Source: a virus
Strand: one strand, 5' to 3'
Virus record (IMG/VR): IMGVR_UViG_3300044825_001003
Location: 1-64,000 of that record
DNA length: 64,000 nucleotides
Part shown: positions 3,089 to 17,163 of the stretch, piece by piece
Layout of the letters: each line of letters begins with the position of its first letter
How positions within the stretch are numbered: position 1 is the first letter of the stretch
Made by a program: the position numbers and the translations under genes
The notes under the pieces: model-generated
Databases searched by the model: none
What the model was told of the DNA's origin: nothing
The model's input: the letters and a program-made list of their open reading frames with translations, nothing else

Positions 3089-4085
3089 GGCTGTTCATCA
3101 TGTCATCGAGTGAGATACCGAGTTCAGCCGCAGCCCGAGCTTCGTCGAAGATCGCTGGGTTAATCTGGTATTCCTTAAGGAACTTAATCATCGAGTCCCC
3201 GGTGTGGTAGTCCTTCATGGAGAACATCTTATCGAGAGTCTTCATGAGGACTGTCCCGTTCTGGAGGTTGTTAGCCTTGGCTACGATATTAGCCAGCTCC
3301 TCAATGTTTACGTTCGCAGGAGCCTGAGCTTCGGCTTGAGGCGCGTTCTTCTTCGTCCAGAGATCCCCAAACTTTACAGGGTCAGCCTTGAAAGACTCTT
3401 TCTCCTGCTCTCCGCGAGATACGTAGGCGATGATGTCCGTCAGCGGCTTGATGTACTCAGCCGATTCCTTGGGTGAACCGTTAGGCCACAGCCCCTTGAA
3501 GTATTGCTTCACGGTATTGATGTCGGCTCCGGTCAGTTCCATCAATTTATTCCGCAAAGTCTTGGCGTCTTCAGTAGGGTTCGACGGCTTCTGCTCCGCT
3601 TCAGGTTGAGGCTCGACGCCGAGAGCGGCCTTAGTCTGGCGAGGGGGAGCGGCTTGACGTTGCGGTTGCTGGCGAGTCTGGGTCACGCCGCTGCCAGCGT
3701 TGCCGTCGTCATCGACCTCCGACACCATTCCAAGCATAGCGCCGAGGGCATAGCGGCGAAGATAGGTGATCGTCGCGCCGATAGCCTGCGGCTTGCTATC
3801 ATTAGACCGCATGGCGAATTGAGACATCATCCACTGGCCGGAACTATGGATGATATACGTCTCGACCGCAGCCCCCGGCATATCGCCTTCGATTGGGGCA
3901 ACGGGTTGGAATACGGCAAGCCCATTCTCGGTCATCGCTGGTTTGATCGCGTCCATCAGAGAGGCGAGGTCAGCGTAGTGGTTCTTGAGGTGTGGATTGG
4001 TGGCGTTCTTTACCGCCGCCTCAATACCTGCCCATGCCTTAATCACTGCGGGCATGAGCTTATCGGTCTGTTCAGAGAAAAACAT
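3078..4085 (-). CDS. erf: ERF-family single-strand annealing recombinase
   Basis: 335 residues with RBS AAGGAGTATT before ATG. The N-terminal half is a clear ERF domain: NHYADLASLMDAIKPAM, then QAIGATITYLRRYALGAML and a MVSEVDDDGN end. A Gln/Pro-rich linker follows (about 135-170), then a helical C-terminal region. ERF proteins anneal complementary single strands during phage recombination and concatemer formation. Its partner nuclease overlaps its 3' end. Confidence 0.95.
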   Translation of the reverse strand: MFFSEQTDKLMPAVIKAWAGIEAAVKNATNPHLKNHYADLASLMDAIKPAMTENGLAVFQPVAPIEGDMPGAAVETYIIHSSGQWMMSQFAMRSNDSKPQAIGATITYLRRYALGAMLGMVSEVDDDGNAGSGVTQTRQQPQRQAAPPRQTKAALGVEPQPEAEQKPSNPTEDAKTLRNKLMELTGADINTVKQYFKGLWPNGSPKESAEYIKPLTDIIAYVSRGEQEKESFKADPVKFGDLWTKKNAPQAEAQAPANVNIEELANIVAKANNLQNGTVLMKTLDKMFSMKDYHTGDSMIKFLKEYQINPAIFDEARAAAELGISLDDMMNSRGN

Positions 4086-4093
4086 AATACTCC

Positions 4094-4285
4094 TTATTCT
4101 TTTACGTCAGGAAGGGGGCACCACTCAGGGAAGGCCCCGTACTCTTCATCGGGCGACTGAATGAGGCGACCGTTAAGGCCGCACTCACTCAGGTATTGGG
4201 TGTCGCTGTTCGGCGCAAGGATATGGGTTTCCTTGTTGCGTGGACAGCGAAAGCAGTTGTTGATTGCGATGGTTACCTGTTTCAT
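4094..4285 (-). CDS. Small Cys-rich protein, CFRCP...WCPL type
   Basis: 63 residues. CFRC at 11-14, a lone Cys near residue 35 and WCPL near the C-terminus. Same four-Cys plan as the small proteins at 1675-1896 and 22758-23136. Its ATG overlaps the stop of the upstream membrane peptide gene (TAATG), which sets the start. Probably Zn-binding; role unknown. Confidence 0.8.
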   Translation of the reverse strand: MKQVTIAINNCFRCPRNKETHILAPNSDTQYLSECGLNGRLIQSPDEEYGAFPEWCPLPDVKE

Positions 4286-4467
4286 TAGGCCACCTGTTCC
4301 AGTTCTTTGGCCGCAGACGCCTTGGTTTGCGCCTTTGCGTCCCAGGAGCGGGCGTCGGCCAGCAACCACCGAGCGACCCTGCGCTCGATGGTTGGGAGTC
4401 CATTCTTCCGCACCTTGTAGGTAGCGACCATGATAGCGATTACGGCGAGTCCGATTGCGACCTGCAT
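4285..4467 (-). CDS. Small single-pass membrane protein
   Basis: 60 residues with one N-terminal hydrophobic helix (AIGLAVIAIMVATY), then a basic, charged cytoplasmic-type tail. ATG overlaps the ParB stop (TAATG), and its own stop overlaps the next start the same way. Membrane location is inferred; no family recognised. Confidence 0.75.
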   Translation of the reverse strand: MQVAIGLAVIAIMVATYKVRKNGLPTIERRVARWLLADARSWDAKAQTKASAAKELEQVA

Positions 4468-5414
4468 TACTGCTTGCTCCCGGCGATAAGGGCTTCAAGG
4501 GCGTCAACCGCATCGCTGTCGTCGCTGATCTCGCCAGTCATGATCGCAAGCATGACACTGGACAGCTTCTGAAGTTCATCACTAATAGCCGGGGAGCCGA
4601 CCATGACCTCGAAGAACCCGTGAAGTTCATTCCAAGAGCGCTTGCTGTGATCCTTGCCCTCGGTCAGTTTGCGGATGATCTCCTTAACCTTCTTCTTCTT
4701 GGCGGGCTTCTCTTCGGCAGCGGGCTTCGCCTCTTCGGTTGCCTCTGCGGGGATGGCTTCAGTTCCGCCTTCGCCAACGGTCTCCTTGGCTTCCGGTTCG
4801 GCGGGCTCAGTGATCTCCTTGATTGCCTCGACCGCTTCCTTCTGCTTTTCCTCAGACATCTTTGAGATAGCGAGAGCGTCCGAGAACGTCATCTCCCCAT
4901 TGTGGACCTTGCTCTGGATCGTGTAGTCCAGGCTCAGGAGGTTGCGGTGCTGAGAGACCCAGGCGCTAGTGCGGCCAAAGAAGCTGGCGATCTGGGAGTC
5001 GGACTGGCCAAAGTTCTCGCTCATCCGGCGAATGGCGAGGGAGTAGTCCATGTGGGACAGTTCGTTCCGGTGGGCGTTCTCCGCGAGGTTGCGGAAGAAT
5101 ACGTCTCGCTCGTTACCGTCGAAGACGACAACCTTGATCTTCATGCGCTGGTCTTCGGGGAGCGAATCGTTAATCTGTTTAATGGCCTCGTAGCGACCAA
5201 ATCCGTAAGCCAGCCGCAGGGTGTTGCTCGGCTTGACGCGAACCGCGCCGACAGCTTCAAGCTGGCCGTACTGACTGATAGACTGGATAAGGGTCTTAAC
5301 GTCGCTCTGAGAGAAGCGATTGTTTGTGCCGTGATCGACAGAGATATCGTTCAGGTCAACGAGGAACTCCGCCCCACGTTCGGGCTTAACGGACGATGCA
5401 AACTTCAAAGACAT
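4467..5414 (-). CDS. ParB-like protein (nuclease/CTPase-type domain plus HTH)
   Basis: 315 residues with a strong AAGGAGAACACACA ribosome site. N-terminal ParB domain with the GFGRYEAI box (about 70-77) and ENAHRNELS; then an HTH region (DSQIASFFGRTSAWVSQH, about 137-154). The middle to C-terminal part has an Ala/Glu/Pro-rich linker and a Lys-rich patch. Could mark the phage genome, act as a regulator, or serve partition. No ParA is visible in this window, so plasmid-like partition is not supported. It heads the leftward recombination run. Confidence 0.9.
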   Translation of the reverse strand: MSLKFASSVKPERGAEFLVDLNDISVDHGTNNRFSQSDVKTLIQSISQYGQLEAVGAVRVKPSNTLRLAYGFGRYEAIKQINDSLPEDQRMKIKVVVFDGNERDVFFRNLAENAHRNELSHMDYSLAIRRMSENFGQSDSQIASFFGRTSAWVSQHRNLLSLDYTIQSKVHNGEMTFSDALAISKMSEEKQKEAVEAIKEITEPAEPEAKETVGEGGTEAIPAEATEEAKPAAEEKPAKKKKVKEIIRKLTEGKDHSKRSWNELHGFFEVMVGSPAISDELQKLSSVMLAIMTGEISDDSDAVDALEALIAGSKQ

Positions 5415-5501
5415 TGTGTGTTCTCCTTTAATTGAATCGCTGATGCGATACTAAAATGCTACTATGGTGTTGAAGAATTTGCAACCACAAATTGAGGCAG
5501 C
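5415..5501. promoter_or_regulatory. Divergent promoter region between parB-like and HTH genes
   Basis: 87-nt gap between two divergent starts. Read on the minus strand, TTGCAA, 17 nt, TAGCAT lies upstream of the ParB-like gene and fits a sigma-70 promoter at 4/6 in each box. The HTH gene on the other strand could act here as an autoregulator; that is inference. Confidence 0.5.
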
Positions 5502-5843
5502 ATGAAAGAAACGAACTACAGAGTTGCAGTGAGAGAACTGCTAAAGAGGGGATTGACCAAGACGCAGATCGTTAAAGAAATTGGGTGCGATCCGTCGTAT
5601 GGGTACAAGCTGGTGTGCCAAGAGTCGGCTAGGTCTGGCTTCTTGCCGCCTACCCCGGACAGGATAGATAAACTGGAAGAGAGAGTGCGGCAGCTTGAGA
5701 AGCTAATAGCCACGCTGGTTTCCATGAAGCGTTTCGGAGGTTCTGGGATTACTCAATCCCGACAAGAGACTCCAGAAGATCGACTTCGGAGACTGATTTC
5801 TGACAGCGAACGCCGAGGGCAAACGCCCGAAGAAGGGCAGTAG
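5502..5843 (+). CDS. Small HTH protein with coiled coil, candidate regulator
   Basis: 113 residues, the only plus-strand gene left of 17.8 kb. Helix-turn-helix at about 12-36 (RGLTKTQIVKEIGCDPSYGY), a short leucine-rich coiled coil at about 54-72 (IDKLEERVRQLEKLIATL), and a charged tail. Position opposite the ParB-like gene suggests it binds the shared gap and controls the leftward operon. Its last 95 nt overlap the convergent gene 5749-6117. Confidence 0.72.
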   Translation: MKETNYRVAVRELLKRGLTKTQIVKEIGCDPSYGYKLVCQESARSGFLPPTPDRIDKLEERVRQLEKLIATLVSMKRFGGSGITQSRQETPEDRLRRLISDSERRGQTPEEGQ

Positions 5844-6117
5844 AGACGATATCGAGCATGACGAGATTGGATTCTTTGGCGATTTCTTCCTCCGTCTTCC
5901 CTGCCCCGGCGTTACGAGAATCTAAAACCTGCTGAGCCAAGACCATGCTGAAGATAACTCCATCGGACAGCATGGCGATGACTTTCATATTGGAGGCGTC
6001 GTCGAGTAGGGCGGTCTTGAGTTCGGTGTCGATGTCCTTCCATGGCTCAAGGCTGCTTTTGTCGATTGTCTCTTCGATGGATTTGTAGATATTCTTGGAC
6101 GCCTTTGCGTATGTCAT
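5749..6117 (-). CDS. Hypothetical helical protein
   Basis: 122 residues, RBS AGGAGAACGG before ATG. Mostly helical with no cysteine-rich or catalytic motif recognised. It is the last gene of the long leftward run from 17157 and ends 95 nt inside the convergent HTH gene. Function unknown. Confidence 0.7.
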   Translation of the reverse strand: MTYAKASKNIYKSIEETIDKSSLEPWKDIDTELKTALLDDASNMKVIAMLSDGVIFSMVLAQQVLDSRNAGAGKTEEEIAKESNLVMLDIVSTALLRAFALGVRCQKSVSEVDLLESLVGIE

Positions 6118-6131
6118 TTTGTTCCGTTCTC

Positions 6132-6374
6132 CTATTCGTTAAAGATCCAGGCCCATTTTATGCCGGGATTCTGGTTGAGTTCGTCGATCCAAGGATTGCC
6201 GCCGACGAAGTGTGCCGATGTTGTTCCTTGGATATCGTGTCCAACAAGTATAGCCCTTCCATCTGGATAAAGCAATACCACGCCAGCAGGAACCGATTGA
6301 TCCGGTCCCCAGGGGAGCGAAGAGACTGGATTGAACTGAAGATTTAACAGTCGCTCTTGCAGTCTTTCGCTCAC
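6132..6374 (-). CDS. Small 'LPW...KWAW' protein, paralog of 12095-12388
   Basis: 80 residues from GTG. Plan: RL..LN.NPVSSLPWG, then a hydrophobic VLLY..GRAILVG strand region, then PWIDELNQNPGIKWAWIFNE. It matches the product at 12095-12388 at both ends and in the centre. The arrangement recalls the small phage DUF551 class (work-alike W-P...LP...V.V...W), a loose resemblance only. It lies downstream of glutamine amidotransferase copy A, as its paralog lies downstream of copy B. Confidence 0.75.
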   Translation of the reverse strand: MSERLQERLLNLQFNPVSSLPWGPDQSVPAGVVLLYPDGRAILVGHDIQGTTSAHFVGGNPWIDELNQNPGIKWAWIFNE

Positions 6375-6375
6375 G

Positions 6376-6822
6376 TCAGTCTCCCGGCCTCTTTATCGAG
6401 GCTATGGCCGCAATATTCCGCATCGCTTTTGCATCGTTAAGCCACCCGTCTCGGACGAGGGAGAGACTGTCAGGAAGTTGATTAGCGCACATCTCGATTC
6501 CATCTGCCATTCCGAGAGTGTGCTTGAGCGACTCCATATCGAGCGAATGAAACCGCTTTTTAGGTTTCTCTTTAGCTTTAATTGAAACCGGATTGTTTTC
6601 AGCATCAAACAAGGTAGCCCAGCCATTTCTCTTTGCTTTATTCCTTGTGGTGATTACCACCGCGCCGTCTGGCCGTCTGGCCGAAACAGCGAAGGGGAGC
6701 TGGGAAGAGAACAGCTTTACCTCTGCAATTGGGGCAGCGGCAGCGAGAGCGATAGGCCGCTTATCTGCGCCAATATACATCTTCCCGTTGAAGTCTGCGA
6801 TTACGGTTACTCGGTACGACAT
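6376..6822 (-). CDS. Hypothetical protein
   Basis: 148 residues. N-terminal beta-rich segment (SYRVTVIADFNGKMYIGADK), an Ala-rich stretch, then a basic linker and a helical C-terminus. ATG overlaps the stop of the upstream gene (TAATG). No family recognised; lies between the amidotransferase and the LPW protein. Confidence 0.72.
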   Translation of the reverse strand: MSYRVTVIADFNGKMYIGADKRPIALAAAAPIAEVKLFSSQLPFAVSARRPDGAVVITTRNKAKRNGWATLFDAENNPVSIKAKEKPKKRFHSLDMESLKHTLGMADGIEMCANQLPDSLSLVRDGWLNDAKAMRNIAAIASIKRPGD

Positions 6823-7103
6823 TACAGCCCCCTCAGTTCGTCTTCAGTTTCATCTGCGGTAAGCAGCACGGCTGGCCCGCTGATTCCAATGCCGCTGACT
6901 GCGGTTGCCGTCCTATTGTATTCGGTGTATGAATTTGAGTACATGATTAGTCTTTTCTTGTTTTGCTTGTCTATGAATAAACTTTTTTGTACAAGATGAG
7001 GAAATGTTCCGAGTGCTATCTGCATCTGATAGTTGCGAGTACCGTTGTCGATGGATAGGTCGATGTGCGTAATGCCTTGATTTGCCCCAATAATTGTTGC
7101 CAT
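6822..7103 (-). CDS. Hypothetical protein
   Basis: 93 residues, no Cys, mixed beta character with Asn/Tyr-rich parts and an acidic C-terminus. Begins two bases after the amidotransferase stop. No family recognised. Confidence 0.7.
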   Translation of the reverse strand: MATIIGANQGITHIDLSIDNGTRNYQMQIALGTFPHLVQKSLFIDKQNKKRLIMYSNSYTEYNRTATAVSGIGISGPAVLLTADETEDELRGL

Positions 7104-7105
7104 GA

Positions 7106-8062
7106 TTATCTCCCGTTAATTTGATTAAGCTCGTAAGAGCCGCGCACTCGCTCGATCTTCTCGTCGATGTCGTCCCAAGAATACGGGACGCGGTTACTGT
7201 CGTAGAAGACCCCGGCGTTAATCCCCTGTAGAGAGGCGGCGACTTCTTCTTCCATCTCGTTGGCATACAACTCGCTTAGGACTTTACGGCATGGGCGACA
7301 CAGGATCATGCCGTCACACTCGGGCGACTCTTCCAGCCAGTCCAGCGTATTGCAATACTCGCAGGTGTCCCACAGGTCAGAGCCATCCGCGTAAAAGCGT
7401 TCGTCATTCCAGATATATCCGCTATCGACCGTGTTCTCGGTTTGCTTTGCGGCAGCGGCGATCTGGCAACTACGAGTGTATCGGCTGCTATACTTCTTGC
7501 TGAAGTAAGACTCCCAACTCCAATCGCTGTTCTCGTAAAGAGAAAAGCTGTTGCTGTACCAGACGCCATCTTGCCACAGGCCACTGTTTTCATTAGCGAA
7601 GGAGATGTTGCCTTTGCTGTCTAGGAACGCCAGCTTGTTGCTCTTGCCGATATGCTCTTCGATCATGGTGACAACCTCTTTATCTTTGACCGCATCGCTA
7701 TCGACGCCGATCTCGCGGAGCCTCTTAGCGAAGTGCCACGTATCGGACATTAGCTTATTGCCGCACTCGATCTGAATGACGCCATTGTGCGCCATGTACA
7801 ACTGCTTAGTAATGCGGAACGGGTGGCAGTTGTCGATGTTCTTGGTGCCGTGCGTAGCCCAGCGATAGTGCAGGACGTAGGGGCTACCGTTAAGGTTGTC
7901 GAGCAATGGCTTCAGGGTATCGAAGCGCAATCCTTTATTGACGATGATCTCGGAGCCGTTGGATTGCATTAGCCCCCAGCCGTCAGAGTTATCTTTCCAG
8001 CCACGCTCGATAACGCCGCAAGTCGGAACCTTGCCGTCTCGGGATGCGATGATTAAACACAT
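7106..8062 (-). CDS. Class-II glutamine amidotransferase-like enzyme with Zn ribbon (copy A)
   Basis: 318 residues, RBS AAGGAGACTAATC. Begins MCLIIAS, so Cys2 becomes the N-terminal nucleophile of an Ntn-type glutaminase. Further family residues: Arg67 (HYRWATHG), Asn93-Gly94 (MAHNGV) and Asp107 (SDTWHF). C-terminal Zn ribbon at about 240-263 with CEYC...CRPC. Such domains release ammonia from glutamine, or cleave gamma-glutamyl bonds. The amidoligase gene lies 15 nt upstream. Copy B is at 12496-13194. The neighbour link between this family and amidoligases is known; the phage substrate is not. Confidence 0.92.
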   Translation of the reverse strand: MCLIIASRDGKVPTCGVIERGWKDNSDGWGLMQSNGSEIIVNKGLRFDTLKPLLDNLNGSPYVLHYRWATHGTKNIDNCHPFRITKQLYMAHNGVIQIECGNKLMSDTWHFAKRLREIGVDSDAVKDKEVVTMIEEHIGKSNKLAFLDSKGNISFANENSGLWQDGVWYSNSFSLYENSDWSWESYFSKKYSSRYTRSCQIAAAAKQTENTVDSGYIWNDERFYADGSDLWDTCEYCNTLDWLEESPECDGMILCRPCRKVLSELYANEMEEEVAASLQGINAGVFYDSNRVPYSWDDIDEKIERVRGSYELNQINGR

Positions 8063-8077
8063 TGATTAGTCTCCTTG

Positions 8078-9418
8078 TTAGCGGTCAGAGCTGGTATCGC
8101 CAGCGTATTGGGGGTTGGGGTAGAAGTGGACGTTGTTCAGGTAGTCGTGAAGGTGCTTATAGTGCTTTCGATTACCGGAAACGAACTTAAGGAAAGAGGG
8201 GGTCGTTAAATCACGATAGCTGCGATCACGAGTGAAGTCAATGGTCGCCTTCACGAATTCAAGATTTTTCATGATCCGTTCTTTACGAAGGTTCCCGCGA
8301 AAGATGCGAAACTCGATAGTGTTCATGTTTTGCAGGTTAATCGCTTCATAGCGATCCTCACCGTATCGGCAGTTCCCTACCTTTTTAGCCGCATTGAGCC
8401 TGCCGTATTCATCGCAGGCGCGCTGTGCCACAGTCTTGATAAGCGACTCGTTAGCAGCGTCGTTAACGAACTGTACCATCTTCTGAATGTGCAGTTCGGT
8501 TAACGGTCGGCGGCTGACGTGGACATGAAAACCGCAGGTGCCGGAGTTGTGCGAAGAGATACCGCGAATCTTTTCATCCCAGTTCTCCAGCCACAGCTTA
8601 GTCACTTCTTCCCATGTATGGGGGTGGGTGACGATCTCAAACCCGCGCCCGATGCTGGAGTCGTTCTTGAAATATACCTGCTCGTCATTTTTATTGAGGC
8701 AGCTTGCTACCTCCTTGGCTTTTTCATTTATGTCGTAATCGGACTTAACGTAGACTTCCAGTTCGCAGCCGTAAAAGATTTTCTTCCGTCTGTCGGAGTC
8801 TTCTTTGAGTCCGAAAAAGCGTGGAGCTGGCTTAAAATTATATTCCTTGATTAGCTTGGTTTCTTTATTATCACAGTGTTGGCAAATGTAAACGTACTCG
8901 TCTTCGGCTTCGTCAAAAGACATATCATCGTTATGGTAAACGCCTTCACAGCGCTCGCAGGTGAAGTAGTCAGCCTCGTAACAGCCTCCGCAGATCATGC
9001 TCCCGAATCTGGTCGAGTAAATCTCATTGTCCCGTCTGGACATGCGCTCGTCGCAGTGGTCGCAGCGGAACGTGTACCTAACCACGCAGTTAGAGCAGAC
9101 TATATCTTTACCGTTAGCGATAGGCTCAGGTAATTTGCTGAGGTTCCTGGCCCCGTAAACCCCATTACAAGAAAGGCAGTTAGCTGTTTCTGCGTAGTCG
9201 TGATATTTGTTGTAGCACTCGGAACATACAGCCTCCACTCCCTTTAATTCGCCTGTTTCCGGATCACGCATGACCGCCGATCCGTAATCGCTATAAACCC
9301 TAAGCGTCATCCAGTCGTAGTCTGCTACGGCTGGCTTCTGGCAACAAGAACACTTGTAGGTGTATGGGATATGGCTCGTTCTTTGGTCGCTCATAGCGTC
9401 ATCACATGCTTGGCACAT
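8078..9418 (-). CDS. Amidoligase (COOH-NH2 ligase) with N-terminal Zn ribbons (copy A)
   Basis: 446 residues from the ATG at 9418, chosen for AAGGAGAACGAG upstream. The first ~200 residues hold many CxxC pairs, i.e. several Zn-ribbon-like units. The C-terminal half has the Amidoligase_2 (PF12224-like) signature: GCELEVYV (~215), SSIGRGFEIVTHPH (~252), CGFHVHVS (~294) and TIEFRIFRG (~364). This family is related to glutamine synthetase and glutamate-cysteine ligase and is predicted to form amide bonds using ATP. Paired with a glutaminase-like enzyme, and duplicated at 13197-14438. Target (peptide, protein, cell wall or small molecule) unknown. Confidence 0.9.
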   Translation of the reverse strand: MCQACDDAMSDQRTSHIPYTYKCSCCQKPAVADYDWMTLRVYSDYGSAVMRDPETGELKGVEAVCSECYNKYHDYAETANCLSCNGVYGARNLSKLPEPIANGKDIVCSNCVVRYTFRCDHCDERMSRRDNEIYSTRFGSMICGGCYEADYFTCERCEGVYHNDDMSFDEAEDEYVYICQHCDNKETKLIKEYNFKPAPRFFGLKEDSDRRKKIFYGCELEVYVKSDYDINEKAKEVASCLNKNDEQVYFKNDSSIGRGFEIVTHPHTWEEVTKLWLENWDEKIRGISSHNSGTCGFHVHVSRRPLTELHIQKMVQFVNDAANESLIKTVAQRACDEYGRLNAAKKVGNCRYGEDRYEAINLQNMNTIEFRIFRGNLRKERIMKNLEFVKATIDFTRDRSYRDLTTPSFLKFVSGNRKHYKHLHDYLNNVHFYPNPQYAGDTSSDR

Positions 9419-9440
9419 TCTCGTTCTCCTTTGGTTTGTG

Positions 9441-9569
9441 CTACTTTCTTCTCCAGCACAGTAGAATATAGGATACACCAGTCGCCATGATCGGCGCAAG
9501 CGTAGGCCAGTTCCTCACAGAAAAAACCCCATGCACAGGGCAGAAAAGGAATTCATAAACGTCGTTCAT
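9441..9569 (-). CDS. Small probable membrane protein
   Basis: 42 codons from ATG at 9569, two bases after the upstream stop. One Cys-containing hydrophobic stretch (LAPIMATGVSYILLCW) ending in RRK, like a small C-in membrane peptide. It fills the gap between neighbours in a tight operon, which supports it as real. Function unknown. Confidence 0.5.
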   Translation of the reverse strand: MNDVYEFLFCPVHGVFSVRNWPTLAPIMATGVSYILLCWRRK

Positions 9570-9571
9570 GG

Positions 9572-9808
9572 TTAAGTCTCCCGTTCGATCTTTGTAATGG
9601 TTCCGTCGTCCTCGACGTAGATGTTGGTCCGGAGGAGAACGTCGAGCGCTCCGTCCGTAAACAGACTGGCCTTGATTCTGCTGCCGGGGTATCGCCTTTT
9701 CGCTTCCGGCTGGCATCCAGTGAAGGTGTCGCCAACTTGCAAGGATGCCGCCCACATTTTTCCCTGCATTAAGGCCGTGTGCAATTCGATAATCTCGTTA
9801 TCAACCAT
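9572..9808 (-). CDS. Hypothetical protein
   Basis: 78 residues from ATG at 9808; a GGAG overlaps the end of the kinase/phosphatase gene just upstream. Mixed alpha/beta with VGDTFTGC and a C-terminal VEDDGTITKI beta hairpin. No family recognised. Confidence 0.7.
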   Translation of the reverse strand: MVDNEIIELHTALMQGKMWAASLQVGDTFTGCQPEAKRRYPGSRIKASLFTDGALDVLLRTNIYVEDDGTITKIERET

Positions 9809-9810
9809 GA

Positions 9811-10713
9811 TTAGAACTCCACGTCGATTAGCCCGCAATTAAAGACGGGCAGGTTAAGGGGTTGCCAGCACTCGCGGATCACCTGCGGGCGGTCGTCGAA
9901 TACGGCAAAGACGTTGTACTTATCCTTGATATGCGTCTCGTACATCTCACGCTTTACCTCGCTATCACGCCGCTTGTTGTCCTTGCCGCGCATGACGAGG
10001 CTGTAGTTAAGCGCACTGAACCCGCAGGTTAAATCCAGGGCTTTCTTGGTATCGCTAATGCAATTCTCTGATCTCCCGGTGAAAAAGAAAACCATGAATC
10101 CATACCGATGCGTTAAGGCTATGATGGTAGAAAGTACATGAAGTCTAACGTCATCGCCCAATACTTTGGTTTCGTCGTATGGATTCCGGTCTTTTGGATC
10201 GAATAGAGTTCCATCCAGATCGCAGATAATACATTCGGGTAGTTTATTAGGCTTGAAATTCGGCAGCGTTCGCCGTTCTCGCCCTTCCTTGTGCTTCTTC
10301 CACATCTTACGGATGACCTCCTCTCCTACTTGCTCGTGGCCAGTGCGGAGGGAATCGCGCCGGATACACTCGTTAACCGGGACCATCGTGAAGTCCACTA
10401 GCTCGACCTCGTACCCCAGGGATTTGCACAGTTCCACTGTCTTGTCGAGCGTGTCACGGTTCATGTGGGTATTGTCCACGATGATGTCCCACTCGACCTT
10501 AGAGAACGCCGTTATCATCCCCTCGCGGAGCCGCCTGACCGTATTCTCTACATCCTTATTCCACTCGCGGTTACCGCGTTCTTCGTAAATCTCGTTACGG
10601 ATGGAGTCGTTGTTAACGATGCGGAATTCGGGGATACCCAGTTCTCGAACCTTGTTCCGCGCCCATGTGGACTTCCCACTGGCGGGAAGTCCTACTGTGA
10701 TGTATGCTTTCAT
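9811..10713 (-). CDS. pseT: Polynucleotide 5'-kinase / 3'-phosphatase, T4 Pnkp type
   Basis: 300 residues, close to the 301 of T4 Pnkp. N-terminal kinase with P-loop GLPASGKST (residues 8-16) and NND near 35; C-terminal HAD phosphatase with DLDGTLFD, Asp165 and Asp167 matching the known T4 catalytic positions, plus FFFTGRSE and FDDRPQV later HAD motifs. Repairs cut RNA or DNA ends by adding a 5' phosphate and removing a 3' phosphate. In T4 it works with an RNA ligase against anticodon nucleases; no ligase is seen here. Confidence 0.96.
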   Translation of the reverse strand: MKAYITVGLPASGKSTWARNKVRELGIPEFRIVNNDSIRNEIYEERGNREWNKDVENTVRRLREGMITAFSKVEWDIIVDNTHMNRDTLDKTVELCKSLGYEVELVDFTMVPVNECIRRDSLRTGHEQVGEEVIRKMWKKHKEGRERRTLPNFKPNKLPECIICDLDGTLFDPKDRNPYDETKVLGDDVRLHVLSTIIALTHRYGFMVFFFTGRSENCISDTKKALDLTCGFSALNYSLVMRGKDNKRRDSEVKREMYETHIKDKYNVFAVFDDRPQVIRECWQPLNLPVFNCGLIDVEF

Positions 10714-10715
10714 GG

Positions 10716-10928
10716 TTACTTAATCCTCCAGATCCTTACTTCTTTATCGCTCACCGTGCGGATCTTTAGCTTAAACCCGCACCGCCTCGCTACCTCTCCA
10801 GCCGATGTGTGAACGGTTTGTCGCACCTTGAACTCGGTTACAACTAGGCAGTCACCTACCTCTAGCTTCCTCACTTCGGAGGCTATACTCGGCTGAGGCG
10901 TTAAGTCTTTTCTAATCTCTAGCTTCAT
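10716..10928 (-). CDS. Hypothetical protein
   Basis: 70 residues, basic, beta-rich (LEVGDCLVVTEFKVRQTVH ... FKLKIRTVSDKEVRIWRIK). Stop lies two bases before the kinase/phosphatase start. Resembles small DNA-mimic or binding beta proteins only in a general way; no family assigned. Confidence 0.72.
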   Translation of the reverse strand: MKLEIRKDLTPQPSIASEVRKLEVGDCLVVTEFKVRQTVHTSAGEVARRCGFKLKIRTVSDKEVRIWRIK

Positions 10929-10940
10929 CGTGTTCTCCTT

Positions 10941-11183
10941 TTACTGAAACTTCAACAGTTCCCATTCCTTTCTGGTGAAGCTCTCGCTAACCTTGGTTAG
11001 CAGTCCCCACTTCTTCGCCGTCACTCTGGCGGCTTCAAGCGCGGCGATATCGTGGTTATCCTCACGGCTGACCTCTCGGTTGACCTTTAAGGTAAACCGC
11101 TGCTTGCCGTTAATGTAGACGGCGATGCAATCCAGCTTGCGCTTCCGGTTCCGCTCGGTGGTTCTGATTTTAATGGTTTCCAT
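10941..11183 (-). CDS. Hypothetical basic protein
   Basis: 80 residues, Arg/Lys-rich at the N-terminus (RTTERNRKRK), then a beta pair and helices. AAGGAGAA lies upstream of ATG. No family recognised. Confidence 0.7.
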   Translation of the reverse strand: METIKIRTTERNRKRKLDCIAVYINGKQRFTLKVNREVSREDNHDIAALEAARVTAKKWGLLTKVSESFTRKEWELLKFQ

Positions 11184-11229
11184 TGTGGTTAATTCTCCTT
11201 TGATTTATCGACGTAGTAATCCACGTCCC

Positions 11230-11267
11230 CCAGTCCACTAGTCCAACGGATTGGATGAATGGACTGG
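11230..11267. other. Intergenic hairpin
   Basis: Outer arms CCAGTCCA (11230-11237) and TGGACTGG (11260-11267), with inner arms TCCAA/TTGGA closing a CGGA tetraloop. It fills the 97-nt gap between two minus-strand genes. No clear U-tract; could be a processing site or attenuator. Confidence 0.5.
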
Positions 11268-11280
11268 AAGGGAGGACTGG

Positions 11281-11727
11281 TTATCTCTTAATCGCGTCTC
11301 TCATTTCCCGCATCTGTTTCAGGGCGTCTGATACCGCTCCGATAGCCTGATCGAGAGTGCGTTTAACCTCCTCGACCTCTGTGCCGATTACCGTAGAGCA
11401 GATATCAAGGTCTGATACGGTGCAGTCTAGGTTAACAGCAGCCTTTGTTGCTCTATCTATCGCCGTCTGTAGAAACACTCGCTCTTTCGAGTGTGCCGCA
11501 GCTCCTTCTTCTAGGGACGGAGCAATTAACCTCTTCTCGTTCGCGTCTGAAAGGAGATCCCCCACGGCCTCCGTGAAGGAATCACACATATATGTCATGC
11601 CCTCCAGGTTCTCGTACTCTACATCCTTGCCGTCTTCTATTGGTCCGAAGACAGTACCAATAAATCGGTTACGAAGGTAGACTTGGACGAATTGATTTCC
11701 CTTGTCGTATTTGTAGGTGATCTTCAT
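11281..11727 (-). CDS. Hypothetical protein
   Basis: 148 residues. N-terminal beta sheet region (KITYKYDKGNQFVQVYLRNR) and a C-terminal helical part. ATG lies two bases after the stop of the small membrane protein upstream. No family recognised. Confidence 0.72.
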   Translation of the reverse strand: MKITYKYDKGNQFVQVYLRNRFIGTVFGPIEDGKDVEYENLEGMTYMCDSFTEAVGDLLSDANEKRLIAPSLEEGAAAHSKERVFLQTAIDRATKAAVNLDCTVSDLDICSTVIGTEVEEVKRTLDQAIGAVSDALKQMREMRDAIKR

Positions 11728-11729
11728 GG

Positions 11730-11888
11730 TTAGTCCCTTGTAGTCCAGGCCGCGAACCCCGCCGTCATGATGACGCCCAGGATTCCCAGTCTGGTAGCTT
11801 CCGGTGTGCCGCTGGTTACTCCAGCGACAATTATGGACATTGAGGCGACTAGTCCTGCCGCGCAGATAAGGGCTGTCTCGTTAGTCAT
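11730..11888 (-). CDS. Small two-helix membrane protein
   Basis: 52 codons, ATG at 11888, stop two bases before the next gene. Two hydrophobic segments, ALICAAGLVASMSIIVAGV and LGILGVIMTAGFAAW, separated by a short polar turn. Holin-like in size and plan but without any lysis context nearby, so function is left open. Confidence 0.65.
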   Translation of the reverse strand: MTNETALICAAGLVASMSIIVAGVTSGTPEATRLGILGVIMTAGFAAWTTRD

Positions 11889-11891
11889 TGG

Positions 11892-12098
11892 CTAGTTCTC
11901 CCTTGTGTATGCTGGGATAAACCCCCAGCGGTTAGTGTGTACGGGGTTAACTTCGGTTAGCTTGGGGTTAGCGCCGAAGGCGTAATTGCCAAACAGGTCC
12001 ATTGGTCGGGGAGGTGCCGAATGTTGGCACATATAGAACACCTCCCCGTTAATCATGCAGGGATGCTGAGGGCAGCAGAGCCGATTAGGCCAGCTCAT
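11892..12098 (-). CDS. Small Cys-containing protein
   Basis: 68 residues with Cys pairs near the N-terminus (LCCPQHPC, YMCQHS). ATG overlaps the TGA of the LPW paralog upstream (ATGA). Possibly metal-binding; unknown. Confidence 0.72.
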   Translation of the reverse strand: MSWPNRLCCPQHPCMINGEVFYMCQHSAPPRPMDLFGNYAFGANPKLTEVNPVHTNRWGFIPAYTREN

Positions 12099-12388
12099 CG
12101 CCCTAGTTCCTCGTTAAGCCAAGCCCAGTTTGTAGCGTCCGTCCATGGGAGGCGCGGCTCGTATTTGCCGTTTTCGCCGTATACGCTGTAATTGTCGCTA
12201 CAGCATCCGCAGCCGTTAGTTTGCTCCTCTAAGTTGGTGCCGATCACAACTACACCCCCGGTTTCGCGCCGGATAACCAACCCGATAGGCAAGCTAAACC
12301 ACGGCCAGTCATCATGTTTGATCCACGGCAGCGTCTCGATTGGTTTCCAGTTCAAAGAATTGGCCAGTCTTTTGAATCGCTCGTTCAT
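12095..12388 (-). CDS. Small 'LPW...NWAW' protein, paralog of 6132-6374
   Basis: 97 residues. Starts ERFKRLANSLNWKPIETLPW, has a GLVIRR..GGVVVIG core and ends PWTDATNWAWLNEE. A Cys cluster (GCGCC) is inserted relative to its paralog. Driven by its own strong promoter at 12405-12433. Third member of the duplicated amidoligase module. Confidence 0.8.
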   Translation of the reverse strand: MNERFKRLANSLNWKPIETLPWIKHDDWPWFSLPIGLVIRRETGGVVVIGTNLEEQTNGCGCCSDNYSVYGENGKYEPRLPWTDATNWAWLNEELGR

Positions 12389-12404
12389 TCATCCTCCATG
12401 TAGA

Positions 12405-12433
12405 ATGTTAACAGTTTGCGCGGTTATTGTCAA
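12405..12433 (-). promoter_or_regulatory. Sigma-70-type promoter for 12388 leftward
   Basis: On the minus strand: TTGACA, 17 nt, TAACAT, a perfect -35 and optimal spacing. A GGAGG ribosome site and ATG follow within 20 nt. A related but weaker copy of the sequence (TTAACAGTAACCGC) lies just upstream toward 12475. Confidence 0.85.
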
Positions 12434-12495
12434 TGCCGATATTCATTTTGAACGTAGAATTATTCGGCGGTTACTGTTAAATCAGTAGTGGGTGG

Positions 12496-13194
12496 TTAGC
12501 CCACTACTTCCAGGCAATTGTGGCAGAGCAGGGCGTGGGAGTATGCCTGAGATTGGAATAGCGGCTCCAATTGCCCGCACCAGTCGCAATAGCTGGTTAC
12601 GGCGCGGTCATAGTCGGTTATGGCGGGCGTGATCTTGGAGGGGGTGTAGTGGTACGTTTTGCGGCGGATTAGAGAATCCTCATTACTGAACCATATACCC
12701 TTGCGCCACAGGCCGCTCGATTCGTTAATGATGGTTAGCGCACCGCTGGCTGCGAGGAAGGTGAGTTTATTCCGTCTGCCTATTTGCCGTCCGATAGCGG
12801 CAGAGAATGATTTGCTGGTAATGTCGCGTTCGGTTACGTTGGCCAGTCGCAACTCGCGGGCGAAGTGCCATGTATCAGACATGGCGGGGTTATCGCATTT
12901 AATGTCCAATACCCCGTTATGCGCCATGAACAGGCGGCGGTTAATGCGGAAGGGGTGACAGTTGTTCGTGTTAACCGCGCCATGCGTAGCCCAGCGGGTG
13001 TGTACGACATGGGGATGCTCTACCGCTTCCTGATAGGCCAGTTTGAGCTTGGATAGGGTTAGCCCGCGCCGGACGGTTACCGCGCCGTTACGGGCGAACA
13101 TGACGCCCCAACCATCCGGGTTGTTGTCATAGGCGGTTTCGAGAATGTCGGGGGAGACGGCGCTCCCCTCCGGTGATGCGATGATAAGGCACAT
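12496..13194 (-). CDS. Class-II glutamine amidotransferase-like enzyme with Zn ribbon (copy B)
   Basis: 232 residues, starts MCLIIAS with Cys2 as predicted nucleophile. Conserved HTRWATHG, NCHPFRI, MAHNGV and SDTWHFA. C-terminal Zn ribbon CDWC...CHNC at about 204-228. Shorter than copy A because the stretch before the ribbon and the tail after it are missing. Stop-start spacing to the amidoligase gene is two bases. Function as for copy A: ammonia supply or gamma-glutamyl hydrolysis, partner of the ligase. Confidence 0.92.
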   Translation of the reverse strand: MCLIIASPEGSAVSPDILETAYDNNPDGWGVMFARNGAVTVRRGLTLSKLKLAYQEAVEHPHVVHTRWATHGAVNTNNCHPFRINRRLFMAHNGVLDIKCDNPAMSDTWHFARELRLANVTERDITSKSFSAAIGRQIGRRNKLTFLAASGALTIINESSGLWRKGIWFSNEDSLIRRKTYHYTPSKITPAITDYDRAVTSYCDWCGQLEPLFQSQAYSHALLCHNCLEVVG

Positions 13195-13196
13195 GG

Positions 13197-14438
13197 TTAG
13201 TTGTCCTCTCCGGTGTTTTCCGCGCCGATAAAGGCGTTCAGATTAGGATACTGCTTACGGTTATCGGCGACGAATTTGATGAAATCCTCCCCGCGCAACT
13301 CCCGATAGCTCCGGTCGCGGGTAAATTCGATGGTCGCCTTTACGAATTCGAGATTTTTGAGGATGCGATCTTTGCGGGTGTTACCCCGGAAGATACGGAA
13401 TTCGATGGTATCGTCGTTTTGCAGGTTAATCGCTTCATAGCGATCATAACTCCGGCCACACTTGCCCATCTTCTTATCGCTCTTCAATCTGGCCCAGCTT
13501 TCACAGTCGCGTTGCGCTACGCGCTTTACCAGCTCCCAGTTTTCCGGCGCGTTAATGAATACCACGATCTTTTGAATATGCATCGGCGTCAATGCGGAGC
13601 GGTTAACATGGACGTGAAAGCCACATCGACCGGAAGTATGGGACGATACGCCCTTGATATTCTCGCGCCAATCGTTAGCCCACAGGGATTTAATGGACTC
13701 CCAATCATGGGGATGCGTCACAATCTCGAATCCCCGCCCAATGCTCCCATCTTCTTTTAGATAGACGTGATCTTCGCCCAGGTTATCCAACGCTTCTTGG
13801 GCGGCGTGATCGAGGTTACGGTCGCTTGCTACGTTAACCTCTAGCTCGCATCCAAAATAAAGCACGCCGTTAGCAGCGCGGTTAGAGCTGGTTTTACCGT
13901 GCCGGAAGAATTCAAGGTCCGGAGAATATCCGTAATTGTGGACTAATCGGCTAGAGTTATTGCCATAGCAATCCTGACAATACGCACCACCGTCATCGTC
14001 GCATAGGACGTCATCTCCGGGCACCAGGATACCGCAATCTTCGCAGCGACAATAATTATCTCGGCAGCTCTCGCATATTTCGCCGCCGTTATGTTCACCG
14101 CAGCTATGGCGGTTATGGCACAATTCGGTACAATCGACGCAGGTAAACGTATTTTCGCGCCAGCAGCGGTTACAGCCGATGTTAGTACGCCCCCAGCCGC
14201 CCCCGGCCATCCGTAGTTCAATCTCACCGTTATAGCTAAGGTCATCTTCCGGCACGTCACGCCCGCATGACGGACATTCGACGCGCTTAGGTTCCCTATC
14301 CGCGCAATCCTCGCAGATATCCAGGGCGGCAACTAGGTCGCCGTTAGCATCTTCTATTACCGGATCGCCATAGTCGGCATCGTGCATCGTGCCATGATTA
14401 ACGATATGCTCGTGGCAGCAAACGCAGGTTATCGGCAT
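13197..14438 (-). CDS. Amidoligase with N-terminal Zn ribbons (copy B)
   Basis: 413 residues, AAGGAG before ATG. Same plan as copy A: many CxxC pairs in the first ~180 residues, then GCELEVNV (~195), GSIGRGFEIVTHPHDWE, CGFHVHVN and TIEFRIFRG. Catalytic-region residues match copy A almost without change, while the Zn-ribbon part has diverged. Codons are more GC-rich than in copy A. The duplicated order ligase-glutaminase-LPW protein argues that the three act together. Confidence 0.9.
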   Translation of the reverse strand: MPITCVCCHEHIVNHGTMHDADYGDPVIEDANGDLVAALDICEDCADREPKRVECPSCGRDVPEDDLSYNGEIELRMAGGGWGRTNIGCNRCWRENTFTCVDCTELCHNRHSCGEHNGGEICESCRDNYCRCEDCGILVPGDDVLCDDDGGAYCQDCYGNNSSRLVHNYGYSPDLEFFRHGKTSSNRAANGVLYFGCELEVNVASDRNLDHAAQEALDNLGEDHVYLKEDGSIGRGFEIVTHPHDWESIKSLWANDWRENIKGVSSHTSGRCGFHVHVNRSALTPMHIQKIVVFINAPENWELVKRVAQRDCESWARLKSDKKMGKCGRSYDRYEAINLQNDDTIEFRIFRGNTRKDRILKNLEFVKATIEFTRDRSYRELRGEDFIKFVADNRKQYPNLNAFIGAENTGEDN

Positions 14439-14512
14439 TGTCGGTTAGCTCCTTTATTCGGTTATTCGGGTTAATGCAACCGTCCCGGCGCACTATCGGG
14501 TTAATGCGCCGG

Positions 14513-14521
14513 ATGGTAGCA
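14513..14521 (-). promoter_or_regulatory. Extended -10 promoter for amidoligase copy B
   Basis: Minus strand TGCTACCAT, the same extended -10 seen on the plus strand at 18891-18899. No strong -35. Between it and the gene lie two direct copies of GCATTAACCCGA (14496-14507 and 14466-14477), a possible operator in the leader. Confidence 0.5.
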
Positions 14522-14528
14522 CTAGCGG

Positions 14529-14705
14529 TTATGTGTGAATATATCCGTCTGGTTCCACGCCCCAAAACATCCCGGCGTGGGTAAACGTATAGCACCCCAT
14601 GAGAGGGGAAAAAGTGAGGCGCGATAGGATATCGGCAGCCACGGGCGGATCGAACCGCTTTATAATTGCGTCGGTTACGGGTGCGGGGATTAAATTCTGG
14701 TTCAT
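14529..14705 (-). CDS. Small hypothetical protein
   Basis: 58 codons from ATG at 14705 with AAAGGAATAACCCA upstream and a good promoter at 14725-14753. Product begins MNQNLIPAPVTDAIIKRF and ends in an aromatic, Gly-rich part (FTHAGMFWGVEPDGYIHT). No family recognised; supported by promoter, ribosome site and gap filling. Confidence 0.6.
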   Translation of the reverse strand: MNQNLIPAPVTDAIIKRFDPPVAADILSRLTFSPLMGCYTFTHAGMFWGVEPDGYIHT

Positions 14706-14724
14706 TGGGTTATTCCTTTATGGG

Positions 14725-14753
14725 ATTATGCGCCGTTATGGGCGGGATTGCAA
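14725..14753 (-). promoter_or_regulatory. Sigma-70-type promoter for the 14705 gene
   Basis: Minus strand TTGCAA, 17 nt, CATAAT, followed by a ribosome site and ATG at 14705. It can drive the small gene and the amidoligase/amidotransferase pair behind it. Confidence 0.7.
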
Positions 14754-14802
14754 GGGTTTAACGGTTACCGGGGACGCCGGTTATGGCGCGATTGGTTAAC
14801 CC

Positions 14803-14827
14803 GGCAGCGGCTATTTTGGCCGCTGCC
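14803..14827. terminator. GC-rich hairpin after 14855 gene, possible terminator
   Basis: Perfect 9-bp stem GGCAGCGGC / GCCGCTGCC with a 7-nt loop. It lies just after the stop of the minus-strand gene 14855-15397. No clear U-tract, so termination is uncertain. Confidence 0.45.
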
Positions 14828-14854
14828 AGGTTCCCGCCAGGTTTTGCGCCGGTG

Positions 14855-15397
14855 CTATTCGTATCGCGGGCGGCGTTCGGGGGTGAATTCCGGCGGGGTG
14901 TCGCGGTTAATGCGCGCGACATATACGCCGTCAGATAGAACGGATGAAATATCACGCTTCCCTTCATTTGGCCCCCATAGGCGGCTATCCAGCTTGTTGT
15001 TAAGGCGGGTTGTATACTGGCGGGCGGCGCGATGCGTTCGGAACCGTCGCAGGGATCGGGCTAGTTGCGCGGTGTTGTACCACCAACCGCCTTCTTCCCC
15101 TCCCCCGTAGGCCATGTCTTCCAGGTAGACTGACACGATATAGCGGCCCGTGCCGGGGATAGCCCGAAGGCGGGCGATGCGGGCAGCTTCCCGTTCGGCG
15201 GCAGCGCGGCGTTCGGTTTCGAGTTGCGCGGCGGCGGCGGCGCGGGCATCCAGTAATGCGCGGCGGGCTTCCCCGCTATCGAACATGGCGGCGATATTCT
15301 CGCAAGTATCCAGTTCTTTAACCCATTGGGCCGTGCTGTAATAGCGGGTGCGGAGCCGTTCTAGGATGCTAACGGCGCGTTCGTAGGTGATAGGCAT
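14855..15397 (-). CDS. Hypothetical Ala/Arg-rich helical protein
   Basis: 180 residues. Central long Ala/Arg/Glu helix (about 45-80, LLDARAAAAAQLETERR), likely a coiled coil, then a Gly/Trp-rich turn (YGGGEEGGWWYN) and a basic C-terminus. ATG overlaps the upstream stop (TAATG). No family recognised. Confidence 0.72.
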   Translation of the reverse strand: MPITYERAVSILERLRTRYYSTAQWVKELDTCENIAAMFDSGEARRALLDARAAAAAQLETERRAAAEREAARIARLRAIPGTGRYIVSVYLEDMAYGGGEEGGWWYNTAQLARSLRRFRTHRAARQYTTRLNNKLDSRLWGPNEGKRDISSVLSDGVYVARINRDTPPEFTPERRPRYE

Positions 15398-15639
15398 TAT
15401 TCGGCCCCCGGTAGCGCCGTAAAAACATATCCGGTAGCCGTGAACCCGCCGTTAAGTTCTGGTAGCGTGATCCAATTGGCGGAGGCGTACATACGAGCGG
15501 CCTCCAGATGATTGGCCGCTATCCCTAGCTCGTAATTCCAGGGATAATACCGCCGCTTATATCCGGCGGCGGATACGCTGATCCGGGACGGCAAGGTGTT
15601 GGTTGCGCCGTGATAGCGCGTGATAATAGCAGAGTACAT
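15397..15639 (-). CDS. Hypothetical protein
   Basis: 80 residues, Tyr-rich (YKRRYYPWNYELG), with a beta-rich C-terminus. Coupled by TAATG to the next gene. No family recognised. Confidence 0.7.
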   Translation of the reverse strand: MYSAIITRYHGATNTLPSRISVSAAGYKRRYYPWNYELGIAANHLEAARMYASANWITLPELNGGFTATGYVFTALPGAE

Positions 15640-15727
15640 GATAATTCTCCGTGGTTTGGTTTGAGGCGTAATGCTGCCGCCCCGTTACCCCGCCCGCCGC
15701 GAGATACCGGATGGAAGCACTACTGAT

Positions 15728-16099
15728 TTAAGAGTAGTTGCCGCGTTCTACGATATCGCCCCAGCAACCGACCTTATAATCCCCGTTGACGCGCATAAGG
15801 GTAACGGCGTAAGTATCGCCCGCGTTGACGTATTCAATCGACGGGGAACGCTTCCCCCGTCCGGCGGGGATATATTCGACGCCGTATCCCCCGATTATTT
15901 CGGAAGCGATAGATAGTTTAGTAGTGCATAACTCTAGCGGATGGTAGCAGAATTCGTACCACGATTTAGTGAACGGATACTTTCCGCTATCCAGGGCGGC
16001 TTCCAGGGCGTCTCGTTTGGTAATGCTGAGAATGGCGTGCAGTTCGGCGGCGCGTTCGGCGGCGATTGTTTCGAGTTGCTTGATGCTGGGAATCTTCAT
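15728..16099 (-). CDS. Hypothetical protein
   Basis: 123 residues; helical N-terminus, then beta-rich C-terminal half with GDTYAVTLMRVNGDYKVG. No family recognised. The 88-nt gap downstream holds TGCTTCCAT, a near match to the TGCTACCAT -10 used elsewhere. Confidence 0.7.
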   Translation of the reverse strand: MKIPSIKQLETIAAERAAELHAILSITKRDALEAALDSGKYPFTKSWYEFCYHPLELCTTKLSIASEIIGGYGVEYIPAGRGKRSPSIEYVNAGDTYAVTLMRVNGDYKVGCWGDIVERGNYS

Positions 16100-16121
16100 G
16101 CTAGTTTTCCTTAGTTGGTTT

Positions 16122-16167
16122 GAGGCGGTAAACCGCTCAGTCTAGCCCGCGATTGAATAACGGGCTA
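16122..16167. other. Two intergenic hairpins
   Basis: GGCGGT/ACCGCT near 16124-16137 and TAGCCCG (16143-16149) / CGGGCTA (16161-16167), in the gap between two minus-strand genes. Possible terminator or attenuator; no U-tract. Confidence 0.35.
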
Positions 16168-16178
16168 ACCTGAGAAGA

Positions 16179-16475
16179 CTAGTCGCCGTACTGGGCGGTA
16201 TCGAAGCTAATATCCTCAAAATACATACTCTGGATGTAGGCTTCCGCCGCTTCCGCCGTATCGAACGGGCCGGACCAATCGGTACAGTCGAGATATCCAG
16301 GGGCGGATAGGCGGGCGAAATATCCCGATTTAAGGCGCGCGTCGAATTTATCGCACCCCATAATTTTAGCGGCTTCCTCCCAGCCGAAATAGCGGGAATC
16401 TAGCATATCGCCATTGTTTTCGCTCACCCAAAAATGTCCCCGGATAATTTCCGGCTTCATGAAGCTATCAGACAT
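16179..16475 (-). CDS. Hypothetical protein
   Basis: 98 residues with many aromatic and acidic residues (FWVSENNGDMLDSRYFGWEE...). ATG overlaps the stop of the 28-residue membrane peptide upstream. No family recognised. Confidence 0.72.
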   Translation of the reverse strand: MSDSFMKPEIIRGHFWVSENNGDMLDSRYFGWEEAAKIMGCDKFDARLKSGYFARLSAPGYLDCTDWSGPFDTAEAAEAYIQSMYFEDISFDTAQYGD

Positions 16476-16561
16476 TACAGCACCTCCCTGATGACGATAA
16501 GAGCGGCGACGATAACTGCAAGGCAGATACCGTCATAAATCATGTTCAATAGATTCTTCAT
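16475..16561 (-). CDS. 28-residue single-pass membrane peptide
   Basis: ATG at 16561, stop overlapping the next start as TAATG. One hydrophobic helix (GICLAVIVAALIVI) ending REVL. The coupled stop-start and the gap it fills support it; function unknown. Confidence 0.5.
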   Translation of the reverse strand: MKNLLNMIYDGICLAVIVAALIVIREVL

Positions 16562-16622
16562 TGTCTCGTATCCTTTACTCTGTCGTTTTTACTTTACTGC
16601 TACGCGCCCCGGCGGGCGGGGG

Positions 16623-16871
16623 CTAGGCCCCCGGCTCCGTGATGGGCTTAAATGCGTTTACAGTGGGGATTGATTCGGGATCAATGCCCATACGCTTGAC
16701 TGCTTTCTCAGCCGCGCTATGGGCGGCAGTATCCCGTAGATAGGCTAACGCGCTGCCACTTTCGATAGCACCGTAGCGTTTCTCCCAGCAGAGTAACGTG
16801 GCAAGGCGGGCACGTTTCGCGCGTTCTTTTGGAACGCTGATAGCAAACGTGTAGTTCAGGTATTCCTTCAT
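16623..16871 (-). CDS. Hypothetical protein
   Basis: 82 residues with TTGGAGAAAAAAC before ATG. Basic N-terminal half, helical. Its TAG lies in the loop of a GGGGGC/GCCCCC hairpin that may end transcription. No family recognised. Confidence 0.7.
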   Translation of the reverse strand: MKEYLNYTFAISVPKERAKRARLATLLCWEKRYGAIESGSALAYLRDTAAHSAAEKAVKRMGIDPESIPTVNAFKPITEPGA

Positions 16872-16891
16872 GTTTTTTCTCCAAATGATTG

Positions 16892-16919
16892 ATTGTAAAC
16901 AAGTTTAGCCCCCCGGCAA
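16892..16919 (-). promoter_or_regulatory. Promoter for the 16871 gene
   Basis: Minus strand TTGCCG, 16 nt, TACAAT. The -35 lies inside the terminator hairpin of the gene upstream, so one element ends and the next starts transcription. Confidence 0.6.
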
Positions 16920-16929
16920 GCCGGGAGGC
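16908..16929 (-). terminator. GC-rich hairpin after the 16936 gene
   Basis: Ten-pair stem (one G-T pair) of GCCTCCCGGC with GCCGGGGGGC and a two-base loop on the minus strand. Directly after the stop of 16936-17157. Confidence 0.5.
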
Positions 16930-16935
16930 TGGAAA

Positions 16936-17157
16936 CTACTGCGGTAATACGCGCGGCTGGTGCGGCATCATCCAGCCGCGCAGGTCCAGTCCACAAGTCC
17001 AGGCGGCCGCATAAGCGGCCCAAAACGTACAACGGACACGGGAACGGCGAAGAGCGCGGCCCGCTGCGTAAACAGGCTCTTCATTCCGGTAGATATCGGC
17101 CTTAATCGCGGCAACCCGCGCGCGGCGGAAAGATTTGGCGTTCAGTGTGTTTGTCAT
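16936..17157 (-). CDS. Hypothetical basic protein, first of the leftward run
   Basis: 73 residues from ATG at 17157, Arg/Ala-rich. Start chosen because a -10 box TATTCT ends 6 nt before it with TTGACT 16 nt further up, so the mRNA would start at or next to the ATG. No family recognised. Confidence 0.65.
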   Translation of the reverse strand: MTNTLNAKSFRRARVAAIKADIYRNEEPVYAAGRALRRSRVRCTFWAAYAAAWTCGLDLRGWMMPHQPRVLPQ

Positions 17158-17163
17158 GGACCT

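Follow-up and report, generated by a model that had tools for sequence, protein, structure and literature searches.

Two modules, each consisting of a gene for an amidoligase with an N-terminal Zn-ribbon array (AMD) and a gene for a class-II glutaminase (GAT), were identified within the window, that is, the whole stretch of 64,000 bases analysed here (bases 1-64000 of a virus record of 102,748 bases). In our assessment it is rather likely that the AMD-GAT pair forms a two-subunit glutamine-dependent amide synthetase, that it was doubled by duplication in the clade of this phage and that it is accessory cargo of phages and mobilizable elements. The doubling is specific to this lineage and concerns a gene pair widespread among phages and mobile elements; the pair itself is not new. 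The two best relatives in the viral contig scan, L007 (94 kb record; G001) and L008 (97 kb record; G002), were found to carry two modules each. The genes of the window discussed here are as follows.

8078..9418, minus strand: AMD-A, 446 aa, N-terminal Zn-ribbon array and PF12224 amidoligase domain (PF12224 1.7e-10; PHROG 16683 6.6e-30; nine CxxC motifs; catalytic residues intact)
7106..8062, minus strand: GAT-A, 318 aa, class-II glutaminase with a C-terminal CxxC pair (PF13522 3.9e-5; PF13230 1e-3; PHROG 25883; C2, R67, T70, G72, N93, G94, D107)
13197..14438, minus strand: AMD-B, 413 aa, Zn-ribbon array and PF12224 amidoligase domain (PF12224 8.7e-9; model pLDDT 85.8; Foldseek matches Dop, PafA, glutamine synthetase (GS), YbdK)
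12496..13194, minus strand: GAT-B, 232 aa, class-II glutaminase with a C-terminal CxxC pair (PF13230 4.9e-6, over cut-off; PHROG 25883 4e-19; catalytic residues intact)
6132..6374, minus strand: LPW-A, small protein kept in L007 and L008
12095..12388, minus strand: LPW-B, small protein without a counterpart at module B of L007 and L008
6376..6822, minus strand: neighbour gene beginning 'MSYRVTV', also found downstream of GAT-A in L007 and L008
6822..7103, minus strand: neighbour gene between GAT-A and the preceding gene, without a match in the relatives

All of these were verified as ORFs at these coordinates, lying in a densely packed run of early-type genes. GAT-A starts 15 bp past AMD-A and GAT-B 2 bp past AMD-B. 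The ORF list also offers an alternative start for AMD-A at 9499, with 9418 being preferred because of a short conserved gene whose end lies at 9441. Between the two modules, at 9811-10713, the window encodes a polynucleotide kinase-phosphatase (AAA_33 + HAD_PNKP) that is absent from L007 and L008; in Acinetobacter phage vB_AciJM_313 a polynucleotide kinase is situated two genes away from an AMD. Further observations concern two overlapping genes for small Cys-containing proteins at window 1521-1896, with the similar motifs 'CGTCKWF...FCNYPLPPLP' and 'FANCKYY...CQYPLPQLP', which are likely to be a small tandem duplication, and a helicase-like ORF at L006 16975-19746 (record 99975-102746) with an insertion beginning 'CFVAGTLIDG', which appears intein-like by eye.

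The classification of amidoligases reportedly originates with Iyer et al. 2009. Both AMDs were placed in the PF12224 family, as the initial annotation had proposed, with 41.6 and 36.0 bits against the Pfam cut-off of 22, the name of this family in Pfam carrying the word 'putative'; the profile matched all 24 AMDs that were aligned (E up to 0.1). Both also matched PHROG 16683, which is annotated as 'unknown function'. The N-termini contain nine (AMD-A) and eight (AMD-B) CxxC motifs, and the two proteins share 44% identity over 396 aa. Residues invariant in the alignment of 24 AMDs include E219, E221, D253, S255, E261, H298, H300, R333, R356, N361, E369 and R371 (AMD-A numbering), and all twelve are present in both copies of the window phage, L007 and L008. 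A search by sequence for a close solved relative of the AMDs found none. With the predicted structure of AMD-B, the best solved matches in Foldseek were Dop (4b0r, E 6.5e-4), glutamine synthetase (5dm3), PafA (4bjr) and YbdK (1r8g), with E up to 5e-3 and TM-scores of 0.2-0.3, the low scores being attributable to the query being multi-domain with the Zn-ribbon part included. All four belong to the GS superfamily, which is also the probable fold superfamily of the AMDs as judged from this model. The LIM domain of Isl1 (4jcj) was among the Foldseek matches of AMD-B, and weak LIM domain matches were found in three of the 24 AMDs.

The partner proteins were likewise identified as class-II glutaminases, in agreement with the earlier assignment, through matches to PF13230 and PF13522 and to phage GATase PHROGs. 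GAT-B lies above the PF13230 cut-off (26.1 against 23), while GAT-A falls just below both cut-offs (24.1 against 27 for PF13522). The PHROG matched by both, 25883, is annotated as 'unknown function', and searches with the GAT profile reach the glutaminase domain of glucosamine-6-phosphate synthase. GAT-A and GAT-B are 37% identical over 262 aa. The class-II (Ntn) signature was found in the GATs, namely a Cys next to the initiator Met, a conserved Arg, an Asn-Gly and an Asp, and the residues given above for GAT-A are present in all six GATs of the three phages. Catalytic motifs had been said to be kept in both copies, and no loss of a checked AMD or GAT key residue was seen in either copy of the window phage, nor in L007 and L008. 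Copies A and B are both likely to be active.

The occurrence of a GS-fold ligase so strictly paired with a glutaminase is best explained by a glutamine-dependent amide synthetase. In such an enzyme, GAT would use its N-terminal Cys nucleophile to convert glutamine to glutamate and ammonia, AMD would activate the carboxylate of a target with ATP, the target being selected by the Zn-ribbon array, and transfer of the ammonia to the activated carboxylate would yield a carboxamide. The GS fold can also accommodate hydrolysis of amide or isopeptide bonds, as in Dop, and ligation with amines different from ammonia, as in PafA, and so neither direction nor nucleophile is fixed by the fold of AMD. The direction of the reaction, its product and targeting by the Zn ribbons are what we infer for the pair, and, as no AMD-GAT fusion was found among the loci examined, the physical association of the two proteins is likewise presumed. 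No experimental work on any member of the Zn-ribbon AMD-GAT family was found in the literature searched.

With the identities given above, modules A and B were found to be paralogous, as proposed in the initial annotation. Its description of the same two enzymes in the same order was correct for the window but did not extend to L007 and L008, in which GAT precedes AMD in module B. Trees constructed for both enzymes placed all six copies from the window phage, L007 and L008 in one clade, with support of 80/95 (AMD) and 93/93 (GAT). Within the AMD tree, AMD-A of the three phages grouped as a separate clade (100/98); their B copies were not joined, and GAT-B of the window was closest to GAT-A sequences. 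Judging by these trees, the doubling most likely arose inside this small clade and predates the divergence of the three phages known from it. Values of dN/dS between L007 and L008 were 0.20 for AMD-A, 0.15 for AMD-B and 0.11 for each of GAT-A and GAT-B, and this range of 0.10-0.20 overall indicates that both copies are maintained by purifying selection.

Comparison of the window phage to L007 and L008 showed the late genes for terminase, portal and capsid to be approximately 90% identical (85-92%), with identities of 46% for AMD-A, 52% for AMD-B and 53-55% for GAT-A; the early region (window 1-17500) is divergent as a whole, other early genes included. Four phages related by their major capsid protein (77%, 60%, 54% and 55% identity; records of 86, 96, 99 and 78 kb, possibly incomplete) gave no match to profiles for AMD, GAT or LPW that were positive in L007 and L008. 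Among its phage relatives, the AMD-GAT modules are accessory cargo.

Runs of small ORFs rich in Gly, Tyr, Asp and Ser (e.g. 'MDESIRYDYGGYSHG...GYGSGDGDGSG') were observed to flank module B in L007 (5942-9331) and L008 (5745-8739). In record coordinates such runs are located at 6306-9695 and 92264-94170 of G001 and at 88553-91547 of G002, being confined in the latter to the flank of module B. The window contains no such small ORFs, and a role for them as peptide substrates is not needed, since they are missing there.

A related small protein, LPW, had been regarded as the third part of each module. LPW-A and LPW-B were indeed found to be homologous, though distant (27% identity, pairwise E 6e-8, and alignment with their relatives). 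The three-part set itself did not hold, with LPW being found only at module A in L007 and L008, where its counterparts occupy the same position as in the window, and at no other AMD locus examined, so that co-occurrence with AMD-GAT does not extend beyond the clade of three phages among these loci. Scans of viral contigs, with a reach of close relatives only, found no further LPW relatives. LPW was therefore rejected as a third module component; separated from GAT-A by two genes, LPW-A is probably an operon neighbour and no part of the module. The structure model of LPW (pLDDT 63.7) was too poor for interpretation, and a suspected DUF551-like family was dropped, as no match was found in Pfam.

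Scans with two short motifs each identified relatives of AMD on 408 viral and 528 cellular stretches. With a broader profile, GAT was found at all 81 distinct viral AMD loci examined, and 76 of the 81 GAT genes in this viral set lie directly 3' of AMD on the same strand. Several CxxC motifs are present in the AMD N-terminus at the 80 best viral loci, with the exception of about 12. A Zn-ribbon AMD with GAT as the next gene on the same strand, an arrangement which occurs twice in the window, is a widespread two-gene module and is not specific to this phage. Cultured phages with the pair include Marvin-type mycobacteriophages and the OM43 phages MEP401 and MEP402; for the AMD of a Clostridioides phage, no GAT match was found within its record.

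The cellular gene context was counted for the best 80 of the 528 stretches, of which Ruminococcus flavefaciens and other Clostridia contribute the majority, a single genome having up to four of these AMD loci. GAT was situated one to three genes downstream of AMD in 72 of 85 cases. DUF960 was found nearby at 44 of these 80 loci (almost always immediately upstream), a relaxase at 43, a serine or tyrosine recombinase at 60 and either a relaxase or such a recombinase at 66, these being raw counts. A cassette of DUF960, AMD, GAT and a serine/tyrosine recombinase with a relaxase nearby was seen to recur, in several copies in a genome, among L092-L171 (Ruminococcus flavefaciens and other Clostridia). 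Full-length tandem AMD-AMD-GAT arrangements were identified in L096 and L159. As read from this gene context, the cellular loci appear to be integrative mobilizable elements. That the pair travels with phages as well as with mobilizable elements suggests that it may serve in contests with other elements or in taking over the host. PADLOC defence profiles gave no match up to E 0.1, and a known anti-phage defence system was rejected on this basis.

Amidation of a protein, whether of the phage itself or a host factor for defence or transcription, at Asp or Glu side chains or at the C-terminus, with the Zn-ribbon array as the reader of the target, is a possible if tentative account of what the module does. 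The N-terminal LIM-like arrays fit protein recognition, the nearest solved folds, Dop and PafA, work on protein-linked carboxylates, and the fast divergence of the modules (46-55% identity against 85-92% for late genes) is as conflict genes would show. Zn ribbons, however, bind nucleic acids too, and the divergence is partly regional. We regard it as unlikely that the module instead amidates host peptidoglycan precursors, at the carboxylate of D-Glu or meso-DAP, and thereby hinders adsorption or lysis by competitors. Cell-wall modification is the usual proposal for phage amidoligase and GATase and recurs in the literature (PMC10580990, PMC11945000, PMC11318856), and glutamine-dependent amidation of cell-wall carboxylates is established for MurT/GatD (PMC3267633); the carriers, phages and mobilizable elements alike, occur in many hosts, all of which are peptidoglycan-bearing. 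Set against this are the three partner enzymes behind the original proposal, which are missing here, and the different AMD of phage LUZ24 (both considered below).

It is quite improbable that the product of the pair is a small molecule or modified nucleotide, with a carboxylate being converted to a carboxamide for DNA modification or for nucleotide or NAD salvage. Such pathways frequently use glutamine-dependent amidation, and a module of Acinetobacter phage vB_AciJM_313 lies near genes for PRPP synthetase and NAMPT, but inspection by eye of the window and the remaining record revealed no base-modification genes beyond methyltransferases, and a Zn-ribbon array is better suited to macromolecular targets. 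Differences between the relatives in the order and shape of module B would fit one copy being redundant or in decay and the doubling being neutral; this is very improbable given that the catalytic residues are all present in both copies of three phages and that dN/dS is low for both. The A and B copies may possibly serve two different targets. A broader and rather doubtful reading takes the Zn-ribbon AMD-GAT pair as a protein- or envelope-amidating weapon common to phages and integrative mobilizable elements, in which doubled modules would amidate two targets, each set by its own Zn-ribbon array.

More interest attaches to the spread of the pair over phages and mobilizable elements than to its doubling. 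That it occurs in phages whose hosts are unrelated, and also in mobilizable elements of gut Clostridia, suggests a general role in inter-element conflict, and the retention of both copies within one small clade provides a natural test case as to whether Zn-ribbon arrays determine target choice.

Pairing of an amidoligase with a glutaminase had been noted as known, which is borne out by its frequency in phages and mobilizable elements; an amidoligase with a GATase has been reported in LUZ24-like phages, phage tf, UFV-P2, OM43 phages and others (PMC3890496, PMC3517423, PMC10580990, PMC11945000). As in the present phage, the PF12224 amidoligase of LUZ24/phiEco32-type modules adjoins a class-II GAT. 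In LUZ24 the pair lies beside a PF14395 ligase, a RimK-like ATP-grasp and GGCT, all three of which were detected there as a positive control and were absent from the present record (G000), L007 and L008, and a LUZ24-type 'peptidoglycan modification' module was rejected for this reason. Furthermore, the AMD of LUZ24 is without Zn ribbons and is missed by the AMD profile, whereas the AMDs described here possess Zn-ribbon arrays. The missing partners and this difference point to the present module being a separate, minimal, Zn-ribbon subtype.

Comparable pairs are gp105-gp106 of mycobacteriophage Marvin and gp05-gp06 of OM43 phage MEP401, in which a PF12224-type AMD is likewise immediately followed by a class-II GAT and both profiles match; these pairs are single copy, with about 27-34% identity, fewer CxxC motifs and no LPW. 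The novelty claimed for a doubled, Zn-ribbon-fused set was weakened, as Zn-ribbon AMDs were found to be usual, the pair common and a cultured Acinetobacter phage also to have it twice. This phage, vB_AciJM_313, possesses two distinct AMD-GAT pairs (CDS_27/28 and CDS_165/164) with very remote sequences and AMDs of about 675 aa, much longer than those described here; one pair is present at both record ends as a terminal repeat, and the two pairs are oppositely oriented, with a distance of about 15 kb between them. The mobilizable elements of Ruminococcus flavefaciens likewise encode a Zn-ribbon AMD (about six CxxC motifs) followed by GAT, and share the occurrence of more than one copy in a genome (several there, sometimes with two AMDs ahead of one GAT); they differ in having DUF960 upstream, a recombinase downstream and a relaxase nearby, and in a GAT of a different subtype, with identities of about 31-34%.
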